A stretch of DNA of 64,000 nucleotides from Streptomyces malaysiensis subsp. samsunensis (GTDB taxonomy: Bacteria > Actinomycetota > Actinomycetes > Streptomycetales > Streptomycetaceae). A model generated the notes under the pieces. It had not been told where the DNA came from, did not search any database, and worked only from the letters and a program-made list of their open reading frames with translations. Positions 31,794-54,726 of this stretch are shown here, one piece after another; the first letter of the stretch is position 1, and each line of letters begins with the position of its first letter. Position numbers and translations under genes: made by a program. The stretch covers positions 1 to 64,000 of the forward strand of contig NZ_JANIIC010000027.1 in the NCBI RefSeq assembly GCF_024519315.1. The letters run 5' to 3'.

Positions 31794-31955
31794 TTACTGG
31801 TCCCGGATCTCGTCGAGCGAGATCCCGGCTTTGCGGGCGGCTGTGGTGGCGGCGCGGGCGGCGACGTAGTCCTCGTCGGTGCCGGACTTCACGTATGCGC
31901 GCCAGGCGCGGCGCGCTTCGGCGAGCAGTTGGTCTCGGGAGGTGGTTGCGGCCAT
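31794..31955 (-). CDS. Small hypothetical protein
   Basis: A 53-residue helical protein starting AATTSRDQLLAEARRAWRAY and ending AARKAGISLDEIRDQ. Its ATG overlaps the preceding stop (ATGA) and it leads into the Nudix gene. It is absent from a length-limited gene list but is well supported by spacing. Function unknown. Confidence 0.6.
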   Translation of the reverse strand: MAATTSRDQLLAEARRAWRAYVKSGTDEDYVAARAATTAARKAGISLDEIRDQ

Positions 31956-32362
31956 CAGATCCACCGGCCGCGCCGCTTGGTCTTGCGGCGTTCATCGTTG
32001 GCCTCGCGCACCTGCTTCTCCAGGCCCCGGATCTCGGTCTCGTCCAGGTAGCGCTCGGTGTCGCTGCCGAGGGGCCCGGCGACCTGGGGGCTGGGGCTGG
32101 CGACGTCCCGCAGCCCCGGCGGCTGGGATGAATAGACCGTGCCGTACTTCAGTACCAGGTCACCGGCGCTCACCGTGCCGGCAACCATCGGCTTGCCGAA
32201 GACCTTGCTCCAGTGGGTGACGGGGAACTTGCTGGCCAACTGGGCGTCCTCGTAGGGGGCGACTCGCTTCTCGACGTCGACGACGACCCAGAGGACGTCG
32301 CCGACCTTCGCAGTGCGGTCGAGATCCTTCGCGCCGCGCTTGTCGGTCCATGTCTTCACCAT
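31955..32362 (-). CDS. Hypothetical protein downstream of the octamer array
   Basis: A 135-residue protein, first gene after the symmetric octamer array. It has a beta-rich N-terminal half (AKVGDVLWVVVDVEKRVAPY) and a basic helical C-terminus (LEKQVREANDERRKTKRRGR). AAGGAG precedes the ATG. The basic tail could bind nucleic acid. It is a candidate partner of the array or the motor gene; no family recognised. Confidence 0.65.
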   Translation of the reverse strand: MVKTWTDKRGAKDLDRTAKVGDVLWVVVDVEKRVAPYEDAQLASKFPVTHWSKVFGKPMVAGTVSAGDLVLKYGTVYSSQPPGLRDVASPSPQVAGPLGSDTERYLDETEIRGLEKQVREANDERRKTKRRGRWI

Positions 32363-32405: not shown

Positions 32406-32581
32406 GTGCTCTCGGGCCTGCTCAGCCCTGCTCAGGGATGCTTCGTTGCAGGTCAGAGCTGCTCAGGGGTCTGCTCAGGGGCTGCTCAGAGCGGAGGTTG
32501 AGCAGGGCTTGAGCAGAGGGTTGAGCAGCGCTGACCTGCGGAAACGTCACCTTGAGCAGGCTTGAGCAGGGGGATGATCAG
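32406..32581. repeat. Mirror-symmetric octamer array downstream of the FtsK/TraB-like gene
   Basis: Ten octamers: CTGCTCAG at 32418, 32428, 32459, 32471 and 32482, then TTGAGCAG (the reverse orientation) at 32498, 32509, 32521, 32552 and 32562. A 9-mer GCAGGTCAG at 32448 is mirrored by CTGACCTGC at 32531. Every element and gap (2, 12, 2, 4, 3 bp from outside in) is matched across a centre at 32493.5, while spacer sequences differ. A degenerate outer pair lies at 32406 and 32574. Conserved spacing with diverged spacers points to protein binding. Confidence 0.9.
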
Positions 32582-32591
32582 GGCATTACGG

Positions 32592-34748
32592 TCACAGAAG
32601 GCGGTCCAAGGCGTCCCGCTTGAAGCCCCTCGGGTTGGCCAAGTTGTCCAGCGGGCCGAGCGTCACAGGCTTGCCGACGCCCGCCTTCACGAACAGCTCC
32701 TTCAGCGACTCGGCCGTCATGTCGCCGTAGGCGTCGGGGTCATGCTCGGCGAGCTTGGCGACGAGAGTCTCCGTGCGCATCCGATCCACCCCAGCCTTGT
32801 CCATCAGGTCGACAACGTCGGCGATCACAGCGGTGGTCTCCTCGGTCACCGTCCCAGCCGGAGGCTCCGCGTCGCACAGCTTTAGCAGTTGATCCCAGGT
32901 CAGCAACTCGACGGGGGCTTCCTTCTTGAGGTTGCCCTCGATGTCAACCACGGGCTCCACGTACTCGGGCGGGTCGACGGTCGCCATGGCGTCGAGGCTG
33001 TCCTGGTCGGGCTCCACGAGCCCGGCCTCCAGCCGCTCGGTAGCCAGCTTCCGCAGGGTCGCCGACGGCACCTCGTGGACCTTGTATTCGATCGGCTCAT
33101 CGGGCATGCCGGGCACGCCCTGGATGAAGATGTGCCCGGCATCCTTCGGGTCTGTGTCGGTGGCGGGTGCCAGGCGGTGCGGCAGCCAGCCCTCGTTGAC
33201 GGACCCGTCGCCGAACACGGCTCGGGTGTCGCCGACCTTGCACGGGCCGATGCCCTTCAGCGCCATCATCTGGGCGATGTTCTCGCCCAGGTACAGCTTC
33301 GTGCCGCCCTGCGAGGCGATCTCGACCTCGATCAGCTCCTTGCGGCCGACGAGCAGCAGGTCGAAGGCGAGACGCTTGGCCAGCTCGGTCGCCTTCGGGA
33401 ACTCGTCGAAGAAGATCGTGACCGCCGGGTGCGTCTTGCTGGCCTTCCACTTCCGACCCATGCCCAGCGTCTTGCGAAGCCGGGCACGCGCCTTGGACAT
33501 GACCAGGAAGAACAGGAGCACGGCTTCGATCTGCTCGTGGGTGCGGGCCGTGATCCTTACGGCGTCGTGCAGGTCTTCGAGGCCGTCGCCGTGCGGGTCG
33601 AGGTCGATGGTGATGTTGTCGTAGCAGGCGGTGGTTCCCTCGGCGAGACCCTGGAGGATACCGGTCTTGCCGCCGCCGGATGCTGCCACCCACAGGCCCA
33701 TCACACCCGCCAGGGATACCTCCAGCGGGTCACCGCCGACGGAACTCCCGATGCGGAACTTGTCAGTGATCGACATCGACTTCGGGGCCCGGTACGGAAG
33801 GCCAGGCGCCGATGCGAACGGATCCGCGCCTCGGTCCACCATCCGCATCACCGCACACGCCCGCCGCTCCTTCATAGGCGAGGGGCGCACCCCGTTGGCG
33901 GCGAGGTCGAACCGGGTCTCCAGGTCGCCGGCCGCCTTGATGATCGCCTCGGGGGTGCCTTCGCTGACGCGGACCACACACTGCCAGCCCCACGACAGCC
34001 GGATCACGTCCGTCACTTCGGCGACCGGTACGTTCTCGGCGATCAGGGCTCGCAGTACGCATTCTGCGAGCTGCTGCGGGGTGCGAGCCTGGGCGATCGG
34101 GAACGGGCTGCCGCCCTCGGGGAGCTGGTCGACGGTCATGAAGACCTGCCCCGTGTCCTGCCCGAAGTCGTTGTCGGACTGCTCGATGATGGACAGCGGC
34201 GACGCAGAGACCTCAACCTCGGCCGGCTCGGGTCGTCCGTGGTAGGCGCCGAAGACTGCGCCGCCGACCGCCATGCATGCCTCGATCAGGGTTCCGCCGA
34301 CGATGGCGCCGGTCGCTGCCCCGGCCACGCCTACGGCGCTCCAAAGGGCGGTCTTGATGTCGTGGCGCTTCTTGTGCTCGCGATACTCGTCCCGGCGCTC
34401 TTTCACCAGCTCCTTGGCGCTGCCCTCGGCTGCCGTGTTGCCCTTGGCGGAACGCAGCTCGGCGACAGCAGACTCGATCATCTGCGGGTAGTCGTCGCGG
34501 CGGGCGTCCAACCAGCGGCGGCCCAGGTTCTTGTAGCCGCGGGCGGACCATCCGAGGTACAGCTTGTTGTCGACGACGTGGTCCTTGGCGGCGGTGGCGC
34601 GGGCAGCAGCGGCCTCGATCCAGCGGGGCCGGACCGGCTGACCCTGGTGCTTGACGACGGCGCCTTCGACGGGCTCGACGGTGGTGTCGGGCTGGTCTTT
34701 GACGAGGCTCAGGTTGGGCTGGCGGATGGGGTGCGGTGCGGTGGTCAT
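32592..34748 (-). CDS. FtsK/SpoIIIE/TraB-like DNA translocase
   Basis: A 718-residue motor protein. A hydrophobic segment at about residues 133-170 predicts membrane anchoring. The RecA-type ATPase has Walker A AASGGGKTG (about 355-363) and Walker B TIFFDEFPKA (about 444-453). The C-terminal region (about 640-718; VDRMRTETLVAKLAEHDPDA, then NPRGFKRDALDRL) looks like a winged-helix DNA-recognition domain, as in Streptomyces plasmid TraB and some FtsK relatives. The octamer array starts 11 bp after its stop. The next gene upstream encodes an SpdB-like protein. A motor that moves double-stranded DNA is the best reading; packaging terminase is encoded elsewhere. Confidence 0.87.
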   Translation of the reverse strand: MTTAPHPIRQPNLSLVKDQPDTTVEPVEGAVVKHQGQPVRPRWIEAAAARATAAKDHVVDNKLYLGWSARGYKNLGRRWLDARRDDYPQMIESAVAELRSAKGNTAAEGSAKELVKERRDEYREHKKRHDIKTALWSAVGVAGAATGAIVGGTLIEACMAVGGAVFGAYHGRPEPAEVEVSASPLSIIEQSDNDFGQDTGQVFMTVDQLPEGGSPFPIAQARTPQQLAECVLRALIAENVPVAEVTDVIRLSWGWQCVVRVSEGTPEAIIKAAGDLETRFDLAANGVRPSPMKERRACAVMRMVDRGADPFASAPGLPYRAPKSMSITDKFRIGSSVGGDPLEVSLAGVMGLWVAASGGGKTGILQGLAEGTTACYDNITIDLDPHGDGLEDLHDAVRITARTHEQIEAVLLFFLVMSKARARLRKTLGMGRKWKASKTHPAVTIFFDEFPKATELAKRLAFDLLLVGRKELIEVEIASQGGTKLYLGENIAQMMALKGIGPCKVGDTRAVFGDGSVNEGWLPHRLAPATDTDPKDAGHIFIQGVPGMPDEPIEYKVHEVPSATLRKLATERLEAGLVEPDQDSLDAMATVDPPEYVEPVVDIEGNLKKEAPVELLTWDQLLKLCDAEPPAGTVTEETTAVIADVVDLMDKAGVDRMRTETLVAKLAEHDPDAYGDMTAESLKELFVKAGVGKPVTLGPLDNLANPRGFKRDALDRLL

Positions 34749-34766: not shown

Positions 34767-36095
34767 TCAGTTGGCGTCGCCGCGGACGGCGTTCTTGGCG
34801 GTGGTGGACGTCTGCTCGAGGGCCGCCTGCTTCTTTGCGCCCTCGGTGTACGGCTGCGTGTCTCCGGGCCTACGGAGGGGCGGCGTGCCACCGTTGGAGC
34901 GACGCCTGTCGGGGGCGTTCGGGTCGGCTTTGGCGCGGGGACCCTTTTGGGATTCGAGCAGCGACAACGGTCCGAATACCGGTGTCTCGGTGGCGCCCTT
35001 CATGCGGGTCTCTGCAGCCCGCGCGTCGGCCTCGATTTTGGCGGTGATGCCGACCTTCCGAGTGCCGTGCACGAGGTGCCAAGCGTCGCCCCAGATCTGC
35101 TCGGTGACGGTCGCCGAACCCCTCGCCGAACGCAGAGCCTCGGCCACCTCCCACACCTCGGGGTGGTGCTTCTGACGGTCCTCATCGCGCCGCTCCTGCT
35201 CGGTCTCCGCCTGCAGCTGCTGGGCCGCTTTCTCGGCCTTGGCCTTCGCGTCGGCGGCCTGCTTCTCGGCCTTGGCTTCGGTCCGCGCCGCCTCCTCGGC
35301 TTCCTTCTCCTTCTTGGCCGCACGCTTCTCCCGGTACGAGGGAATGCCATCGGCCTTCTGGGCGATGCCGTGCTCGTAGGCCATGAGGACGATCGGCCCG
35401 ACGAGGGAGGCGATGGCGCCGACGAGACCGGCGTTGAAGCCGATCGCGGGGTTGGTCATACCGCCTCGCATGTTGATCGTGGCGGCGATGGCGGCGCCGA
35501 GCATGATGCCGATCCGATACGGGAGAACGTCCCGGCGGTGTGCGACGGCCCAGGCGGCTCCGCAGGCGAGGACGAGGGCGATGCCTTCGAGCATGGCGGG
35601 GGCGGCGACGAGGAACTTGCGGGCCGGGTCCCAGAAGTCGAGGAACTGCACCGGGGCGGCGATGATGAGGCAGACGGCGTAGATGCCACGAGCACCCCAC
35701 TTCCACATCCGCTGGGTGCGCTCCTTCTCGGCGGTCCGCTCGGACTCCCGATCGGCCTCCTCTGCGTCAGCTTTCTCGGCCTTCTCCTTGGCGGCCTTCT
35801 CGCGAGCCTCCTTGGCCTCCTTCTCGGCGAGGTACGCCTTGTGGGCGGCCTGGTCCTTCTCCAGCTTCATGCGGGCGCGCTCGTTGGCGAGCCGCTGCTT
35901 CTCGGCTTCTTCGGTGGCGAGGGTCTGGGCAGCCTTTGCTTTGCCTTCGGCTTCGATGCGTAGGGCTTGGGCTTGGGCGTCGGCGCGCTTCCGGATCGCC
36001 TCCGCCTCGGCCAGGGCCACGGGATCGAACCGGGGCTCGGCGTGCGAGGCAACGGGCGTTCCGTTGACCTGCTTCTCGACGGATGTGGCGGTCAC
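34767..36095 (-). CDS. SpdB-like spread/membrane protein
   Basis: A 442-residue protein with a long charged coiled-coil N-terminal region (about 25-125), four likely membrane segments (about 130-250: IYAVCLIIAAPVQFLDFW, MLEGIALVLACGAAWAVA, and following) and a second charged helical region. The membrane block resembles the DUF2637/SpdB-type proteins encoded next to traB on Streptomyces plasmids, where they aid intramycelial spread. It lies directly upstream of the translocase gene. Coiled-coil flanks of this length are unusual. Confidence 0.75.
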   Translation of the reverse strand: MTATSVEKQVNGTPVASHAEPRFDPVALAEAEAIRKRADAQAQALRIEAEGKAKAAQTLATEEAEKQRLANERARMKLEKDQAAHKAYLAEKEAKEAREKAAKEKAEKADAEEADRESERTAEKERTQRMWKWGARGIYAVCLIIAAPVQFLDFWDPARKFLVAAPAMLEGIALVLACGAAWAVAHRRDVLPYRIGIMLGAAIAATINMRGGMTNPAIGFNAGLVGAIASLVGPIVLMAYEHGIAQKADGIPSYREKRAAKKEKEAEEAARTEAKAEKQAADAKAKAEKAAQQLQAETEQERRDEDRQKHHPEVWEVAEALRSARGSATVTEQIWGDAWHLVHGTRKVGITAKIEADARAAETRMKGATETPVFGPLSLLESQKGPRAKADPNAPDRRRSNGGTPPLRRPGDTQPYTEGAKKQAALEQTSTTAKNAVRGDAN

Positions 36096-40903: not shown

Positions 40904-41434
40904 ATGGCTGATATGCAGCGGCAATCCGACTCGCTCGCCTACATCACGCCACGCAGCGACGGGCAAGCAGACACCTGGAGCGAGGAGGCGCGGCACCGAG
41001 GAGGGCAGCGGCTGACCGATGTCGCAGAGGTCATCCCTTCGAACGAGGTGGCAAGCGCGCTGCGCCTCTCTCCAGGCGAGAAGGCGGCTGTGCGGCGTCG
41101 CGCGATTCTCCTCGACGGCGACGTCATTGAGCTGGCGGACTCGTACTACCCGCTGTCGATCGCCCGGGGAACCGCCCTCGCCGAAAAGCGGAAGATCAAG
41201 GGCGGGGCACCCACGCTACTCGCCAAGCTGGGATTCCAGCCGCACCACGTAACCGAGGACCTTGAGTTCCGGGTCGCCGACGAGCTCGAGCGAGCGGCAC
41301 TCGCCCTGCCAGAGGGCGCCAGTGTCCTCACCCTGCTACGCATCACATCCGCCGAAGACGGGAGCCCCCACGAAGTGCAGTTCATGGTCATGAAGGCGCC
41401 TCGCCGCCTCCACTACGAAATCGAGGTCGACTGA
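40904..41434 (+). CDS. UTRA-domain protein lacking the GntR HTH
   Basis: A 176-residue protein made of a UTRA ligand-binding domain only: VIPSNEVASALRLSPGEKAA, YYPLSIARGTALAEKRKIKG, LLRITSAEDGSPHE. The usual winged helix is missing; instead there is a short N-terminal segment without DNA-binding character. It is clearly paralogous to the UTRA part of the next gene, one base away. It may heterodimerise with the full repressor or sense its ligand. AGGAGG precedes the ATG. Confidence 0.82.
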   Translation: MADMQRQSDSLAYITPRSDGQADTWSEEARHRGGQRLTDVAEVIPSNEVASALRLSPGEKAAVRRRAILLDGDVIELADSYYPLSIARGTALAEKRKIKGGAPTLLAKLGFQPHHVTEDLEFRVADELERAALALPEGASVLTLLRITSAEDGSPHEVQFMVMKAPRRLHYEIEVD

Positions 41435-41435
41435 C

Positions 41436-42197
41436 ATGCCCGAGCCGCACGAGGACAAGCGCCCCCTCGCCGAGCGGATCGCCGCCGAGATCAGAAAACT
41501 GATCATGTCTGGAGAGTGGGAGCCAGGCAAGAAAGTCCCCACGAACGAAAAGCTCAGGGAACAATTCGAGACGTCGAACGTCACCATCCAGCGCGCACTA
41601 AAGATCTTGAAGGATGAGAAGTTCCTCCAAGGCCAGACGGGTGTCGGCGTCTTCGTTCGAGGCGAACGCGCGCAGACGATCCAGCCCGCCCACTACATCG
41701 CACCCTCAGAGCCAGACCAGGCGTACCGGTGGCTCACCGAGGCCACGAAGAGGCAGCAGCGCGGGAAGTACCGCATGCTCGAAGTCGGCGAGGTTGTTCC
41801 GCCAATCGAAGTTGCGCGCGCCCTTCGCCTCGAAGAGGCCAGCACCGCGATGCTGCGCTCCCGTATCGGCTTCCTTGATGACCAGCCGGCCGAGCTGGTG
41901 CACTCGTACTACCCGATCGAACTGGCACGGGGAACCCGCCTGGCGGATCGTCGCCTCATTCCCGGCGGCTCTCCCGCCCTACTCCAGGAGATGGGCTACC
42001 CGACGCGCTCGCAGGATGACGCGGTAGCCGCCCGCCCCGCGACGACCGAGGAGTACGAAGCCCTTGAGATCCCTCGCGACGTGCCAGTCCTGGAGATCTT
42101 TCGCATCGTCTACAGCGACGACGAGAAGCCCATCGAGGTATCGGTCCTGACCAAGCCCGCCCACCGCTTCAAGATGGGCTATCACATCGAGCTCTGA
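41436..42197 (+). CDS. GntR-family regulator with UTRA domain
   Basis: A 253-residue regulator. Residues 10-75 form the GntR winged helix (LAERIAAEIRKLIMSGEWEP, KVPTNEKLREQFETSNVTIQ, RALKILKDEKFL). Residues about 95-253 are UTRA (VVPPIEVARALRLEEAS, YYPIELARGTRLAD, ILxFRIVYSDDEK-type end). Such repressors control transfer genes on Streptomyces conjugative elements. It probably binds the 25-bp inverted repeats at 40774 and 42258 that flank the pair, so autoregulation plus control of the leftward operon is likely. Confidence 0.88.
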   Translation: MPEPHEDKRPLAERIAAEIRKLIMSGEWEPGKKVPTNEKLREQFETSNVTIQRALKILKDEKFLQGQTGVGVFVRGERAQTIQPAHYIAPSEPDQAYRWLTEATKRQQRGKYRMLEVGEVVPPIEVARALRLEEASTAMLRSRIGFLDDQPAELVHSYYPIELARGTRLADRRLIPGGSPALLQEMGYPTRSQDDAVAARPATTEEYEALEIPRDVPVLEIFRIVYSDDEKPIEVSVLTKPAHRFKMGYHIEL

Positions 42198-51671: not shown

Positions 51672-54299
51672 TCAGGCGGCGGCGTGGAAGTCGGCCGTCG
51701 GCTCGTGGCGGGAGATCTCCTCGCCGGTGATGGCCTCGACGAGGGCGCACAGCAGCACCTCGGCCGCGTTCGGCGTGACGGCGTTGCCGTATTGGCGGAC
51801 CCGCTCACGCTTGGAGCCGAGGACCTTGTAGTCGTCCGCGAACGACATGGCCCGGCCGATCTCGTGCGGCTCGAGCATTCGGAACCGCACGTCCTCGATG
51901 GCGGGCTTGCCGTGCACCAGGGCGTACCGGTCCCTGGTGGTGAGCGCCCCGATCGGCTCGACGACCGGGCGGGCGCCGCTGGCCCCGTAGTACGGGATCA
52001 GCATGTGCTCCGACACGTGGTTCGGCGTGACGAGCCCGTGGTGGTTGCCGGACGCGGTGACGGTCGCGAGCGCCTCGGACACCGACCGGGCCACCGATCC
52101 GCCACCACGGAGCTCGGCGATGAACGGCAGCCACGCCAGGCCCGTCTCGTTGCGGGTGGTCTGGGTGCGCAGCGGCAGGTCCGCCGACAGGGCTTCCTTC
52201 CCGTCCCGCCCCTCGACGGGGATCATCAGCGGCGGGATCGCCAGCGCGTCGTTCTCGCGGGTGGTGCGGGTCGGCATCGGATCCAGAACGCTGGTCGCGT
52301 CGTTCCGCCACGTACCGCCGGCCGGGACCATCATCGGCACCGGTCGGGCGAACCGCTCCAGCCCCGCCTGGATCCTCGCCAGGGTCTTAGCAGCGAGCGG
52401 CTTCGTGCGGTCGCCGATGCGCTGACCGGGCAGGGACCAGTCGATCGCCGCCAGCGCGGGCAGCGCCTCCGGCTCCACCACGCTGTTGCGGCACGAGGTT
52501 CGCGGGCACCGGTACACGTACTGCTGCCGGTACCGACCCATGTCGACACCGGGACGCTTCCATGCCTGGACGGCCTGCACCCACTCGCCGCACGGCTCAC
52601 ACCAAGCGCGGGGCCGCAGCCACTTGTCCCAGTCGGGGGCGCGGTTGAGGGACTCGTGCCAGTAGCCGACGTACAGCCGGTCACGGGACTGGGGGGCCTT
52701 GTGCACGGTGCGCGGGTTGGCGTGCATCGAGTTGAGGGCGATGATGCGCGTCTTGTAGCCCATCTTGTGGATCTCGCCGATCCACCGGCCCCACTCGTCC
52801 CACGCGCGGACGTCGACCACGTTCTCGACCACCCCAGCCTTGACCAGGCCGCCGCGCTCTATGACGCCCCGCAGGTACAGCGGCACCTCCTCCATCAAGG
52901 CCCGGGACTCCTCCTCGAGGGACGGCCCGCCATCGTCGTCGGCCTCGAACTTCTGCTGCTCCATCTCCGCGTACAGGTCCAGCAGGTCGCCCTGCATGGC
53001 GTTGATGAAGTCCCGCTTCTTGCCCTTCGCTACGGACCAGTTGGTGCACTCCGGGCTGGCCCAGAAGATGTCGGTCACGGGCCACGCCCACACGGGGGCC
53101 TGGCGGATGTCGCCGCGGTAGTGGTCAGTCTCCGGGAAGTTCGCCGCGTGGGATTCGATCGCCCGCTCCCAGTGGTTCGCGGCACGGGTCACGCGGAGTC
53201 CGGGCACGGCGTGCGCTCCCTGGCTGGAGCCTCCGGCCCCGCAGTTTCCGGTCCAGTGCACCAGGCCGTTGCGGCGGCACAGCCACGTCCCGTGCTCGAC
53301 GGTGGGGCACCAGACGGTGCCGGTGTAGGTGGTCCACTCGGCGACTGCCTGACGAAGTGGCTTGGCGGTGACCCGCTCCAGGAGCGACACCCGCCACATC
53401 GGGTAGGCCGCGCCCTTGTGCTGCATCTCCCATCGGTGGATCGATGTCGCCCGCCCGGCGAGGATGGCGGCGAACTGGAGCCCTTCCGCGCGGTCCTGCC
53501 GGTTCTGCGAGAGGGACGAGTCTCGCGCGCCGTCCCGAACCCGCGTGGTGCCGTCGGCGAGCATCGACGTCTCGATGAGCAGGTCCAGTTGGTCTGCGGT
53601 CAGAGCGAGCAGCCAGGCCGGGTCAAGGACGTGGTCCGGAGCGGCGGCGAGGATGGGCGCCGCGGCAGCGACGTTGAGCCGCCAGTACCGGGTGCCCTCG
53701 TAGTCCGCGACGTTCCAGGCTGGCTGACTAACCCGGCGGCCGGCTCGGCCCATGGGCGACCCGTAGAGCGCGGTCAGCGCCCGCTCGATCCGGTCGCACT
53801 TACCCGGGTTCACCGAGGGCGACTGCGAGAGGTGCAGCCCGCCGTTCTCGCGGTAGCTGCCCTCGGTCCATGCCCAGCCGACCAGCTCGACCAGCGCGTC
53901 ATCGTGGCTGCTGTGCGTCGGGGCCTCGAAGGGGGCGCTCCGGACGACCGAGGATTCCAGCGTGAGCTGGTCAGAGGTTCGCACCTGCCAGGCGAGGCGG
54001 CGGGCGGACGTCTTGCCGACGCGCTGCTGCACGGGCCAGCGGTGGCCCTCCGTCACCAGCGCCGAGAGCGCCTTGCCCTCCACCTTCAGCATCTTCGCGC
54101 CGGCCACCTGGAAGACATTCATCCTCTGGACCGGCACCCAGCGGGCGACGCCGTCCTCGGTGTTGAGGCTGGCCACCAGGTCTCCGACCTGCACCTCGTC
54201 GTAGCGCCGCCATCCATGGGCGGTCAGGATCTCGGTCTCGATGTCGGCGCAGAACCAATCCATGACGGTGAGGGCGTCGTTGTCGTGGCGGTAGCTCAT
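51672..54299 (-). CDS. DNA (cytosine-5) methyltransferase with intein
   Basis: An 875-residue precursor; the extein is 539 residues. Spliced, it starts MSYRHDNDALTVMDWF joined to CGAGGSSQGAHAVPG, the SAM-binding motif I. The catalytic motif IV is FWASPECTNWS, with the Cys in the PxC position. The C-terminal part has a target-recognition region and a final RYGNAVTPNAA-type motif X (VRQYGNAVTPNAAEVLL). ATG 54299 overlaps the upstream stop; AAAGG upstream. It may protect phage DNA from host restriction. The intein splits motif I, so splicing is needed for activity. Confidence 0.9.
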   Translation of the reverse strand: MSYRHDNDALTVMDWFCADIETEILTAHGWRRYDEVQVGDLVASLNTEDGVARWVPVQRMNVFQVAGAKMLKVEGKALSALVTEGHRWPVQQRVGKTSARRLAWQVRTSDQLTLESSVVRSAPFEAPTHSSHDDALVELVGWAWTEGSYRENGGLHLSQSPSVNPGKCDRIERALTALYGSPMGRAGRRVSQPAWNVADYEGTRYWRLNVAAAAPILAAAPDHVLDPAWLLALTADQLDLLIETSMLADGTTRVRDGARDSSLSQNRQDRAEGLQFAAILAGRATSIHRWEMQHKGAAYPMWRVSLLERVTAKPLRQAVAEWTTYTGTVWCPTVEHGTWLCRRNGLVHWTGNCGAGGSSQGAHAVPGLRVTRAANHWERAIESHAANFPETDHYRGDIRQAPVWAWPVTDIFWASPECTNWSVAKGKKRDFINAMQGDLLDLYAEMEQQKFEADDDGGPSLEEESRALMEEVPLYLRGVIERGGLVKAGVVENVVDVRAWDEWGRWIGEIHKMGYKTRIIALNSMHANPRTVHKAPQSRDRLYVGYWHESLNRAPDWDKWLRPRAWCEPCGEWVQAVQAWKRPGVDMGRYRQQYVYRCPRTSCRNSVVEPEALPALAAIDWSLPGQRIGDRTKPLAAKTLARIQAGLERFARPVPMMVPAGGTWRNDATSVLDPMPTRTTRENDALAIPPLMIPVEGRDGKEALSADLPLRTQTTRNETGLAWLPFIAELRGGGSVARSVSEALATVTASGNHHGLVTPNHVSEHMLIPYYGASGARPVVEPIGALTTRDRYALVHGKPAIEDVRFRMLEPHEIGRAMSFADDYKVLGSKRERVRQYGNAVTPNAAEVLLCALVEAITGEEISRHEPTADFHAAA
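53244..54251 (-). other. Intein with LAGLIDADG homing endonuclease in the methyltransferase
   Basis: A 336-residue intein at residues 17-352 of the precursor. It begins at Cys (CADIETEILTAHGWRRYDEV, block A), has a block B TxxH (LVTEGHRWPVQ) and ends TVEHGTWLCRRNGLVHWTGN before Cys+1 of the extein. The penultimate residue is Gly instead of the common His. Between them lie two LAGLIDADG-like helices (ALVELVGWAWTEGSY and LDLLIETSMLADGT), so a homing endonuclease domain appears complete. Confidence 0.9.
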
Positions 54300-54490
54300 C
54301 AGGCGGCCTTTCGGGTGGGCCGCTGGGCGCGGCGGTGGTGGATGTCGGAGTAGGCGGGGAGGTGGCGGGTCGTGGCCCAGGTGGCGCCGCATCCGGGGCA
54401 GTGGTAGCCGTGGACGATGCGGACGCCACGCCAGCGGGTCGCGGCGGGGGCTATGTCGCGGCGGCAGCACGACGGGCAGGAGTCGGTCAT
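54299..54490 (-). CDS. Small zinc-ribbon protein
   Basis: A 63-residue protein with TDSCPSCCRRDIAP and YHCPGCGATWATTRH, a four-Cys zinc ribbon. It sits between the methyltransferase and another small Cys protein, all linked by ATGA overlaps. Function unknown. Confidence 0.65.
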   Translation of the reverse strand: MTDSCPSCCRRDIAPAATRWRGVRIVHGYHCPGCGATWATTRHLPAYSDIHHRRAQRPTRKAA

Positions 54491-54726
54491 CGGTCCGCTC
54501 CGTTCTGGCCGCAGTTGGGGCAGTCGCACACGGCGGGTATGGGCCCGCTGGCGGCGGTGCCGATGGGCCAGGCCCCGGGCCGCGGGATGACGTAGTGGAC
54601 GACGTCCGGCTTCTCGACGGTCGGCGGCTTGGGGGCGGCCTTGCCGGTGAGGAGGCGAAGGAATTCCTCAAGGCTGCCTTCGGCGCGCATGGCCGCAATG
54701 TCGGCGGCGTCGAACTGGGCGGTCAC
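54487..54726 (-). CDS. Small protein with Cys motif
   Basis: A 79-residue protein starting at a GTG on the DnaB stop: TAQFDAADIAAMRAEGSLEE, FLRLLTGKA, ending VCDCPNCGQNG. One Cys cluster. Function unknown; co-transcribed with the replicative helicase. Confidence 0.6.
   Translation of the reverse strand: MTAQFDAADIAAMRAEGSLEEFLRLLTGKAAPKPPTVEKPDVVHYVIPRPGAWPIGTAASGPIPAVCDCPNCGQNGADR

Follow-up and report, generated by a model that had tools for sequence, protein, structure and literature searches.

A mirror-symmetric array of 7-bp words behind an FtsK-fold motor gene of a Streptomyces prophage, a probable clt-type loading site

To our knowledge, how TraB-type motors move uncut circular duplex DNA and how they choose their substrate are open questions. 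Both are raised by a locus of Streptomyces malaysiensis subsp. samsunensis at which ten short repeats lie behind the gene of a putative DNA motor, and we asked which protein reads these repeats and what they serve. The window, by which we mean the whole stretch of DNA analysed (bases 1–64000 of a 124,615-bp contig; genome 11.05 Mb), carries the array inside an integrated prophage with portal, terminase, tail, DnaB and DnaC genes and with host-like genes on either side; a phage integrase is encoded at 70554–71834 of the contig. The initial annotation had described five octamers set against five about a centre at 32493.5, and this description proved exact: CTGCTCAG occurs five times (starts 32418, 32428, 32459, 32471, 32482) and TTGAGCAG five times (starts 32498, 32509, 32521, 32552, 32562). 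The mirrored spacer lengths and the inner 9-mer pair that it reported are likewise present, with start-to-start spacings of 10/31/12/11 on the left and 11/12/31/10 on the right, and with GCAGGTCAG at 32448–32456 and CTGACCTGC at 32531–32539. The inner gap between the 8-mers of this pair is 76 bp. The elements of the array are as follows.

32418..32489, + strand: left arm, CTGCTCA words at 32418, 32428, 32459, 32471 and 32482, reading toward the axis
32448..32456, + strand: constant element GCAGGTCA(G), left copy
32493..32494: mirror-symmetry axis (32493.5)
32498..32569, − strand: right arm, CTGCTCA words (TGAGCAG at 32499, 32510, 32522, 32553 and 32563), reading toward the axis
32531..32539, − strand: constant element GCAGGTCA(G), right copy, the + strand reading CTGACCTGC
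32575..32581, − strand: outer degenerate word CTGATCA with one mismatch, found at the same place in many relatives

The 230 bp 3′ of the motor stop received 5+5 with no wrong-order words in a motif-free score for mirrored arrays, and none of 200 dinucleotide shuffles matched this value. When 120 kb of the contig (124 kb counting a 4-kb overlap) were scanned with a sliding, motif-free score, this array alone reached at least 5. The array words were not enriched elsewhere in the 64-kb window, which holds one CTGCTCAG and one CTGCTCAA outside the array (2.9 and 1.4, respectively, expected by chance in the window as a whole), and the genome contained no second copy of the array DNA at E 0.001. FtsK and SpoIIIE read words on the 8-bp scale (KOPS and SRS, respectively) through a C-terminal winged helix; KOPS are polar and scattered over the chromosome, whereas the words in the window are confined to a single array and not distributed along the replicon. 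The conserved unit is the 7-bp CTGCTCA. The initial annotation had drawn attention to the end base, G in the left arm and A in the right; the difference is present here, but the eighth base varies between relatives, and the asymmetry is therefore incidental as judged from these alignments. Seven of the 14 aligned cores have exactly CTGCTCTGAGCAG at the centre of the array, an extra abutting half-site, which is degenerate in the window array. Neighbouring words in the CTGCTCA class are spaced in clusters at 10–12, 21 and 30–31 bp, that is, by whole helical turns.

The array lies between the motor gene, which ends 22 bases from the first exact word, and a gene for a 135-aa protein. The relevant genes are listed here.

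31955..32362, − strand: 135-aa gene past the array, of a family also found behind motors with other words
32592..34748, − strand: FtsK-fold DNA motor, 718 aa, with a motor part at residues ~200–620 and a C-terminal winged helix
32595..32828, − strand: C-terminal winged-helix domain of the motor, residues ~641–718, the proposed word reader
34767..36095, − strand: DUF2637/SpdB-like membrane protein, 442 aa, encoded immediately upstream of the motor gene, an arrangement shared with plasmid pFP11
40904..41434, + strand: second UTRA-domain gene, adjoining the GntR gene
41436..42197, + strand: GntR/UTRA regulator, kin of the pFP11 and pIJ101 GntR proteins, divergent from the motor gene

Among named relatives of the motor, the closest (81%) is from S. 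sabulosicollis. Sequence comparison gave no FtsK match in Pfam or NCBIfam and one weak FtsK match in the PDB (E 0.4); the motor matches PHROG 12531 'FtsK/SpoIIIE-like' at 1.9e-70. Its AF2 model aligned with FtsK at a Foldseek E of 1.3e-13 and a VIA-align Z of 27.2 (rmsd 3.1 over 338 residues), and on this modelled structure the motor has the FtsK/SpoIIIE fold. One hydrophobic segment (~147–167, Kyte-Doolittle) falls in the N-terminal part, in a low-confidence region of the model. The motor's final ~80 residues form a winged helix in the model (pLDDT 85), and their best PDB matches are winged-helix domains; because the Z is middling (7.4) and no Foldseek E is below 0.18, the predicted tail is assigned to the winged helix at the fold level only.

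The 442-aa membrane protein has no DUF2637 match by Pfam; a single hhalign comparison with the DUF2637 proteins of pFP1, pFP11 and NBC_00285 gave a probability of 99.6. BLAST matched the GntR protein to those of pFP11 (E 9e-10) and pIJ101 (2e-8), and a similar gene order is found in pFP11 and in the plasmid-phage ZL12. Judged by these similarities, the SpdB-like and GntR genes fill out a set of genes already familiar from Streptomyces plasmids. A member of the 135-aa family lies behind the array in 16 of the 19 loci L003–L021 (some of them duplicates). No ParB or Rep gene was recognised beside the array among the genes scanned. Two minor features of the window may be recorded: of the adjacent UTRA-domain genes at 40904–42197, the first lacks a GntR domain match and looks like a partial duplicate, and the 1008-aa protein at 51672–54698 has the pieces of a C-5 cytosine methylase widely separated in one frame.

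Relatives of the motor came from 6 genome loci and 13 viral loci and, further, from at least 44 of 392 genomes of the genus; the genome relatives gave 30 loci including the window's own, plus 17 further stretches, three being repeats. Phage (4 of 89 records examined) and plasmid records supplied others. Few first-look candidates were scored per genome (2; 10 with the array model used below), so the counts are lower bounds and a motor may have been missed. The mirrored-array score exceeded all 200 dinucleotide shuffles in 41 of 64 different motor 3′ flanks, including the nearly one-sided arrays of L048 (6+1) and L011 (4+1). It did not do so in the other 23 (L005, L008, L018, L036–L038, L040, L042, L045, L046, L056, L057, L060, L062, L063, L067–L069, L071–L074 and L076), with L005 (1/200) and L037 (2/200) as near misses. 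With word-score thresholds that were set after the family had been seen, a score of at least 5 was reached by 32 of the 64 motor flanks as compared to 0 of 189 flanks of other genes, these controls being drawn from the window contig and L003–L021. Nine further plasmid flanks gave such a score twice (L125 and pFP11) and a lower one seven times, and no such array was seen by eye after the stop of pIJ101 TraB or of the ZL12 motor.

Phages that keep the motor and lack an array were the case that the initial annotation had set against its own reading, and four were found. The Streptomyces phages L071–L074 encode a motor of ~600 aa that matches the window's up to about residue 607, and no array follows it. 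Their motors are without the winged-helix domain, however, so the missing arrays fit the idea of a loading site, which survives this comparison.

The repeated word differs between classes of array, which were assigned by eye. The window's class has CTGCTCA or CTGCTCG, and the other words are CTGATC, CTGCTA, GTGACG/GTGACA, GGAACA/GGAACC, CTCTAC, CCGTCTA, CCGGAC, AGGTCTG and others. Inside many arrays sits the pair GCAGGTCA...TGACCTGC. When the best match to each half was taken, the inner gap was 76–77 bp in the CTGCTC class, 88 in GTGACG, 97–98 in GGAAC and CTCTAC, and 78 in L067; a gap of 22 in L007, L016 and L017 arose from a tie with a one-mismatch decoy, and the remaining flanks yielded no consistent pair in this search. 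The pair occurred at those gaps with at most one mismatch per half in 37 of 64 flanks (20 at 76, 6 at 77, 5 at 88, 4 at 98, 1 at 97 and 1 at 78), the gap values counted being taken from the earlier best-match search of the same pair. Exact GCAGGTCA was present in 34 of 74 flanks and exact TGACCTGC in 43, both in 29 and neither in 26; the reversed order was seen in 0 of the 29. Searched for alone, the pattern GCAGGTCAN{72,102}TGACCTGC matched 156 of 392 genomes, but a backward-read control also matches many, so most of these matches look like chance and were rejected as array markers. The pattern did lead to one new motor with its array (L109), and no motor was recognised beside the matches L108 and L110–L112. 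The matches in G032, G057, G203 and G364 share a recurring CTTCCGGGACATCTGA-like sequence, perhaps an insertion-sequence end matching by chance.

We compared the words (6-mers present at least 3 times) with the similarities of motor body and tail (normalised BLAST scores) in 58 proteins. Word similarity correlated with winged-helix similarity after motor similarity was removed (partial r 0.407; none of 2000 label permutations reached this value), although its magnitude is only indicative because the permutation test ignores phylogeny; with motor similarity, after the winged helix was removed, the partial r was 0.205. For 1371 pairs with distant motors the word correlated at r 0.33 with the winged helix and at -0.006 with the motor. 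A word was shared by 18 of 31 pairs with distant motors and similar winged helices, by 1 of 11 pairs with near motors and dissimilar winged helices, and by 129 of 1151 pairs distant in both. Individual loci appear to have exchanged the combination: in L044, L047 and L109 other motor bodies end in a CTGCTC-type winged helix, and the words are CTGCTC/CTGCTA. Apart from each other, the motors of L044 and L047 are nearest those of L042, L043, L062 and L063, whose words are CCGTCTA, and the L109 motor is nearest those of L056, L057 and L068, with winged helix and words of the CTGCTC type. These data indicate that the repeated word follows the winged-helix tail more closely than it does the body of the motor.

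The tail of L058 is CTGCTC-like by alignment, and its ORF was too short for the correlation test. At this locus (G375:C2) the N-terminal and C-terminal motor matches lie apart, with a 201-aa ORF over the tail and the array behind it, and the motor gene is perhaps broken or frame-shifted. The tails of L056 and L057 are winged helices of the CTGCTC kind in which NPNG replaces NPRG, and their words look GGTCG-like by eye, a possible single-residue change of specificity.

The array is thus probably a clt-type loading site of the adjacent motor, read by the motor's winged helix, that would serve the transfer of duplex DNA. The initial annotation had proposed a recognition or loading site of this motor, and the linkage of arrays to motors and the coupling of word and winged helix support this part by comparison; L057, which has a related winged helix and no significant array, and six loci with arrays and no motor detected nearby (see below) do not agree with it. 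Comparable sites are known from plasmids. The clt of pWTY27 is reported to comprise 16 bp at the traA end and the following 159 bp; TraA binds it in gel-shift and footprint assays, and clt loss lowers transfer ~1000-fold. In reviews TraB is described as recognising 8-bp repeats in clt and as a mover of duplex DNA, with Spd proteins acting in spread. In these accounts the clt/TRS systems of pSVH1, pJV1, pIJ101 and pWTY27 share with our locus an FtsK-like motor, a C-terminal winged helix and repeated, element-specific words of 7–9 bp, the motors of the plasmids being membrane proteins. In pWTY27 the site also lies directly behind the stop of the motor gene, and the footprinted binding is that of pWTY27. 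The same accounts give direct repeats, along with some inverted ones, for clt/TRS, whereas the array described here has opposed arms, mirrored spacing and the GCAGGTCA pair at quantised gaps, and is found in a prophage rather than in a Streptomyces TraB plasmid. The plasmid-phage pZL12, for which transfer is reported, is a phage-like element with FtsK, membrane and divergent GntR genes in the same order, but its motor is only distantly related and is followed by no mirrored array by eye. In plasmids pFP1 and pFP11 the FtsK gene is followed by a mirrored array (with CTCTAC and CCTGGA, respectively, as the word) and preceded by a DUF2637 gene, and the TGACCTGC element is present; these plasmids differ from the prophage in their words and winged helices, and their annotation shows no phage structural genes. 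In searches of the open-licence literature we found no description of the pFP1/pFP11 arrays, nor did we recognise any account of mirrored arrays at motors, of array banks such as those described below, or of the GCAGGTCA pair. The site is most likely a new, mirror-symmetric variety of clt-type locus carried by prophages, as far as comparison of sequences can tell.

We also considered whether the array serves a protein other than the motor. A partition centromere or a multi-site operator, read by another protein of the element such as the 135-aa neighbour or the GntR regulator, would suit the position of the site just upstream of the 135-aa gene, the presence of that family after the array in many loci, and the existence of arrays without a motor. 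Neither protein tracks the word, and both were rejected as its reader: the 135-aa homologue of L043 is 47% identical to the window's and its words are of another class (CCGTCTA), the family was not found in the stretches of up to 1.5 kb searched behind the GTGACG, GGAAC or L044/L047/L058 motors, and L003 and L004 keep CTGCTCA words with GntR proteins that are no more than 26–29% identical. We consider this explanation improbable. A replication origin with iterons would account for repeated and helically phased words, and the origin of pWTY27 is reported to have mirrored repeats as well, bound by RepA. Here, however, the site stays with the motor in loci where other neighbours differ, the recognised replication genes (DnaB and DnaC) are 22–24 kb away, and the word follows the tail of the motor, so an origin is very unlikely.

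The possibility that the array acts as an RNA or cruciform hairpin, a terminator or 3′ regulatory structure after the motor gene, draws on the folding of the transcribed strand (-98.9 kcal/mol, z -9.0) and on facing spacer positions that are complementary at 0.337 against 0.239 predicted from composition. In 26 CTGCTC-type arrays, facing positions were complementary in 884 of 1045 cases when both lay in words, 198 of 677 when one did and 215 of 638 when neither did; because complementarity falls mainly within the words, the pattern that protein-binding sites would give, the hairpin was set aside and is given very little credence. A docking site through which the motor segregates prophage or chromosome into spores, rather than between cells, is an unlikely alternative: FtsK and SpoIIIE, which share the fold, do this in cells, but the neighbouring genes resemble those of plasmid transfer (SpdB-like and GntR), and the closest studied sites are reported to serve conjugation.

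Under the clt-type reading, the array would be a cis-acting loading site for the adjacent FtsK-fold motor, and the winged helix of the motor would read the 7-bp word. The ~5–6 helically phased words of each arm, with the constant GCAGGTCA pair, may assemble motor rings on double-stranded DNA. Together with the SpdB-like and GntR partners, these could carry duplex DNA from hypha to hypha or through septa, moving the prophage itself or mobilising the chromosome beside it. We infer binding, ring loading and transfer in this way, and also a role for the opposed arms, on which two rings would load facing opposite ways, so that pumping could proceed along the two arms of a closed, uncut circle or on either side of the integrated prophage. 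A large natural collection of motors that have exchanged reading heads and carry words to match would make substrate choice a readable code, and a mirrored site of fixed, helically quantised geometry offers a concrete two-motor model for the movement of circles.

Arrays were also sought independently of motors, with a sequence model of 14 array cores applied to 392 genomes (10 candidates scored per genome). At least 19 places matched at E ≤1e-7; by their coordinates 12 adjoin known motors, and 7, in 6 loci (L155–L160), do not. Weaker matches included the known motors of G118 and G371:C1, and also L161 and L162, which look like chance and were rejected as array loci. Protein comparison at E 1e-3 found no motor-like ORF within ~3.3 kb in L155–L160. 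A looser tblastn search without composition correction gave scattered matches there, the best of them (E 5.5e-18) to an N-terminal portion of the L020 frame; all are regarded as low-complexity matches. A CTGCTC-type winged-helix profile had no match at E 0.01 in G037 and G249 (150 of 171 and 150 of 195 candidates scored), and in the other four genomes its only matches lay on another contig or at a distance of at least about 1 Mb. Judged against the 120-kb background of the window contig, L155–L160 contain, in order, 5, 3, 2, 4, 3 and 4 mirrored arrays at score 5 within 0.4–1.1 kb, the arrays of a bank differing in their words; motor-linked loci had one array each in 10 of 10 looked at. A pattern derived from these banks, searched in viral contigs, returned one further bank (L170) and two loci without arrays, and no motor match was found in L170 at E 1e-8 within 10.5 kb. 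The banks are the following.

L155:2911-3770: array bank, terminase small subunit nearby
L156:3401-3990: array bank, sharing the tape measure protein of L159
L157:3231-3670: array bank, HNH endonuclease nearby
L158:2411-3470: array bank, tape measure nearby
L159:3061-3670: array bank, tape measure nearby
L160:2931-4070: array bank, capsid gene nearby
L170:2951-3830: array bank of four arrays, on a viral contig

Some bank words are also seen beside motors (CTGCTC, CCGTC(T), CCGGA(C), CTGCTA, GTGAC) and others are unlike the motor classes (CCCGGC, CCCTGC, CGGTAC, GGCGAT, GCCCGC); some of the latter may reflect composition. Motors resident in the same genomes ranked 15, 18, 11 and 16 of 61 in word match to the banks, and 30 control positions gave similar summed word scores (mean 0.53, maximum 0.67); because the ranks are low and the controls score alike, this measure gave no support for a match of bank words to co-resident motors. 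In our reading the banks serve in trans as docking sites, as if collected for foreign motors, the alternative being that another factor reads all arrays, banks included. It is conceivable, and we put it forward tentatively, that Streptomyces prophages exploit a shared docking-site code, either with their own motor and one matching array or with a motor-less bank of two to five arrays, several bearing the words of different motor families, usable by any conjugative element in the same cell, the mirror symmetry loading two motors back to back on an uncut circle. If true, motor-less banks would correspond, for double-stranded DNA, to oriT-only mobilisable elements and would open a new route by which phage and chromosomal genes flow in antibiotic producers. 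Blast of one bank gave no match in phages and one short match in plasmids. One L159 array retains the frame GCAGGT...CTGACCTGC, and L155 is 84.7% identical to the window over 203 bp, beyond the motor stop region, and then runs into the next array.
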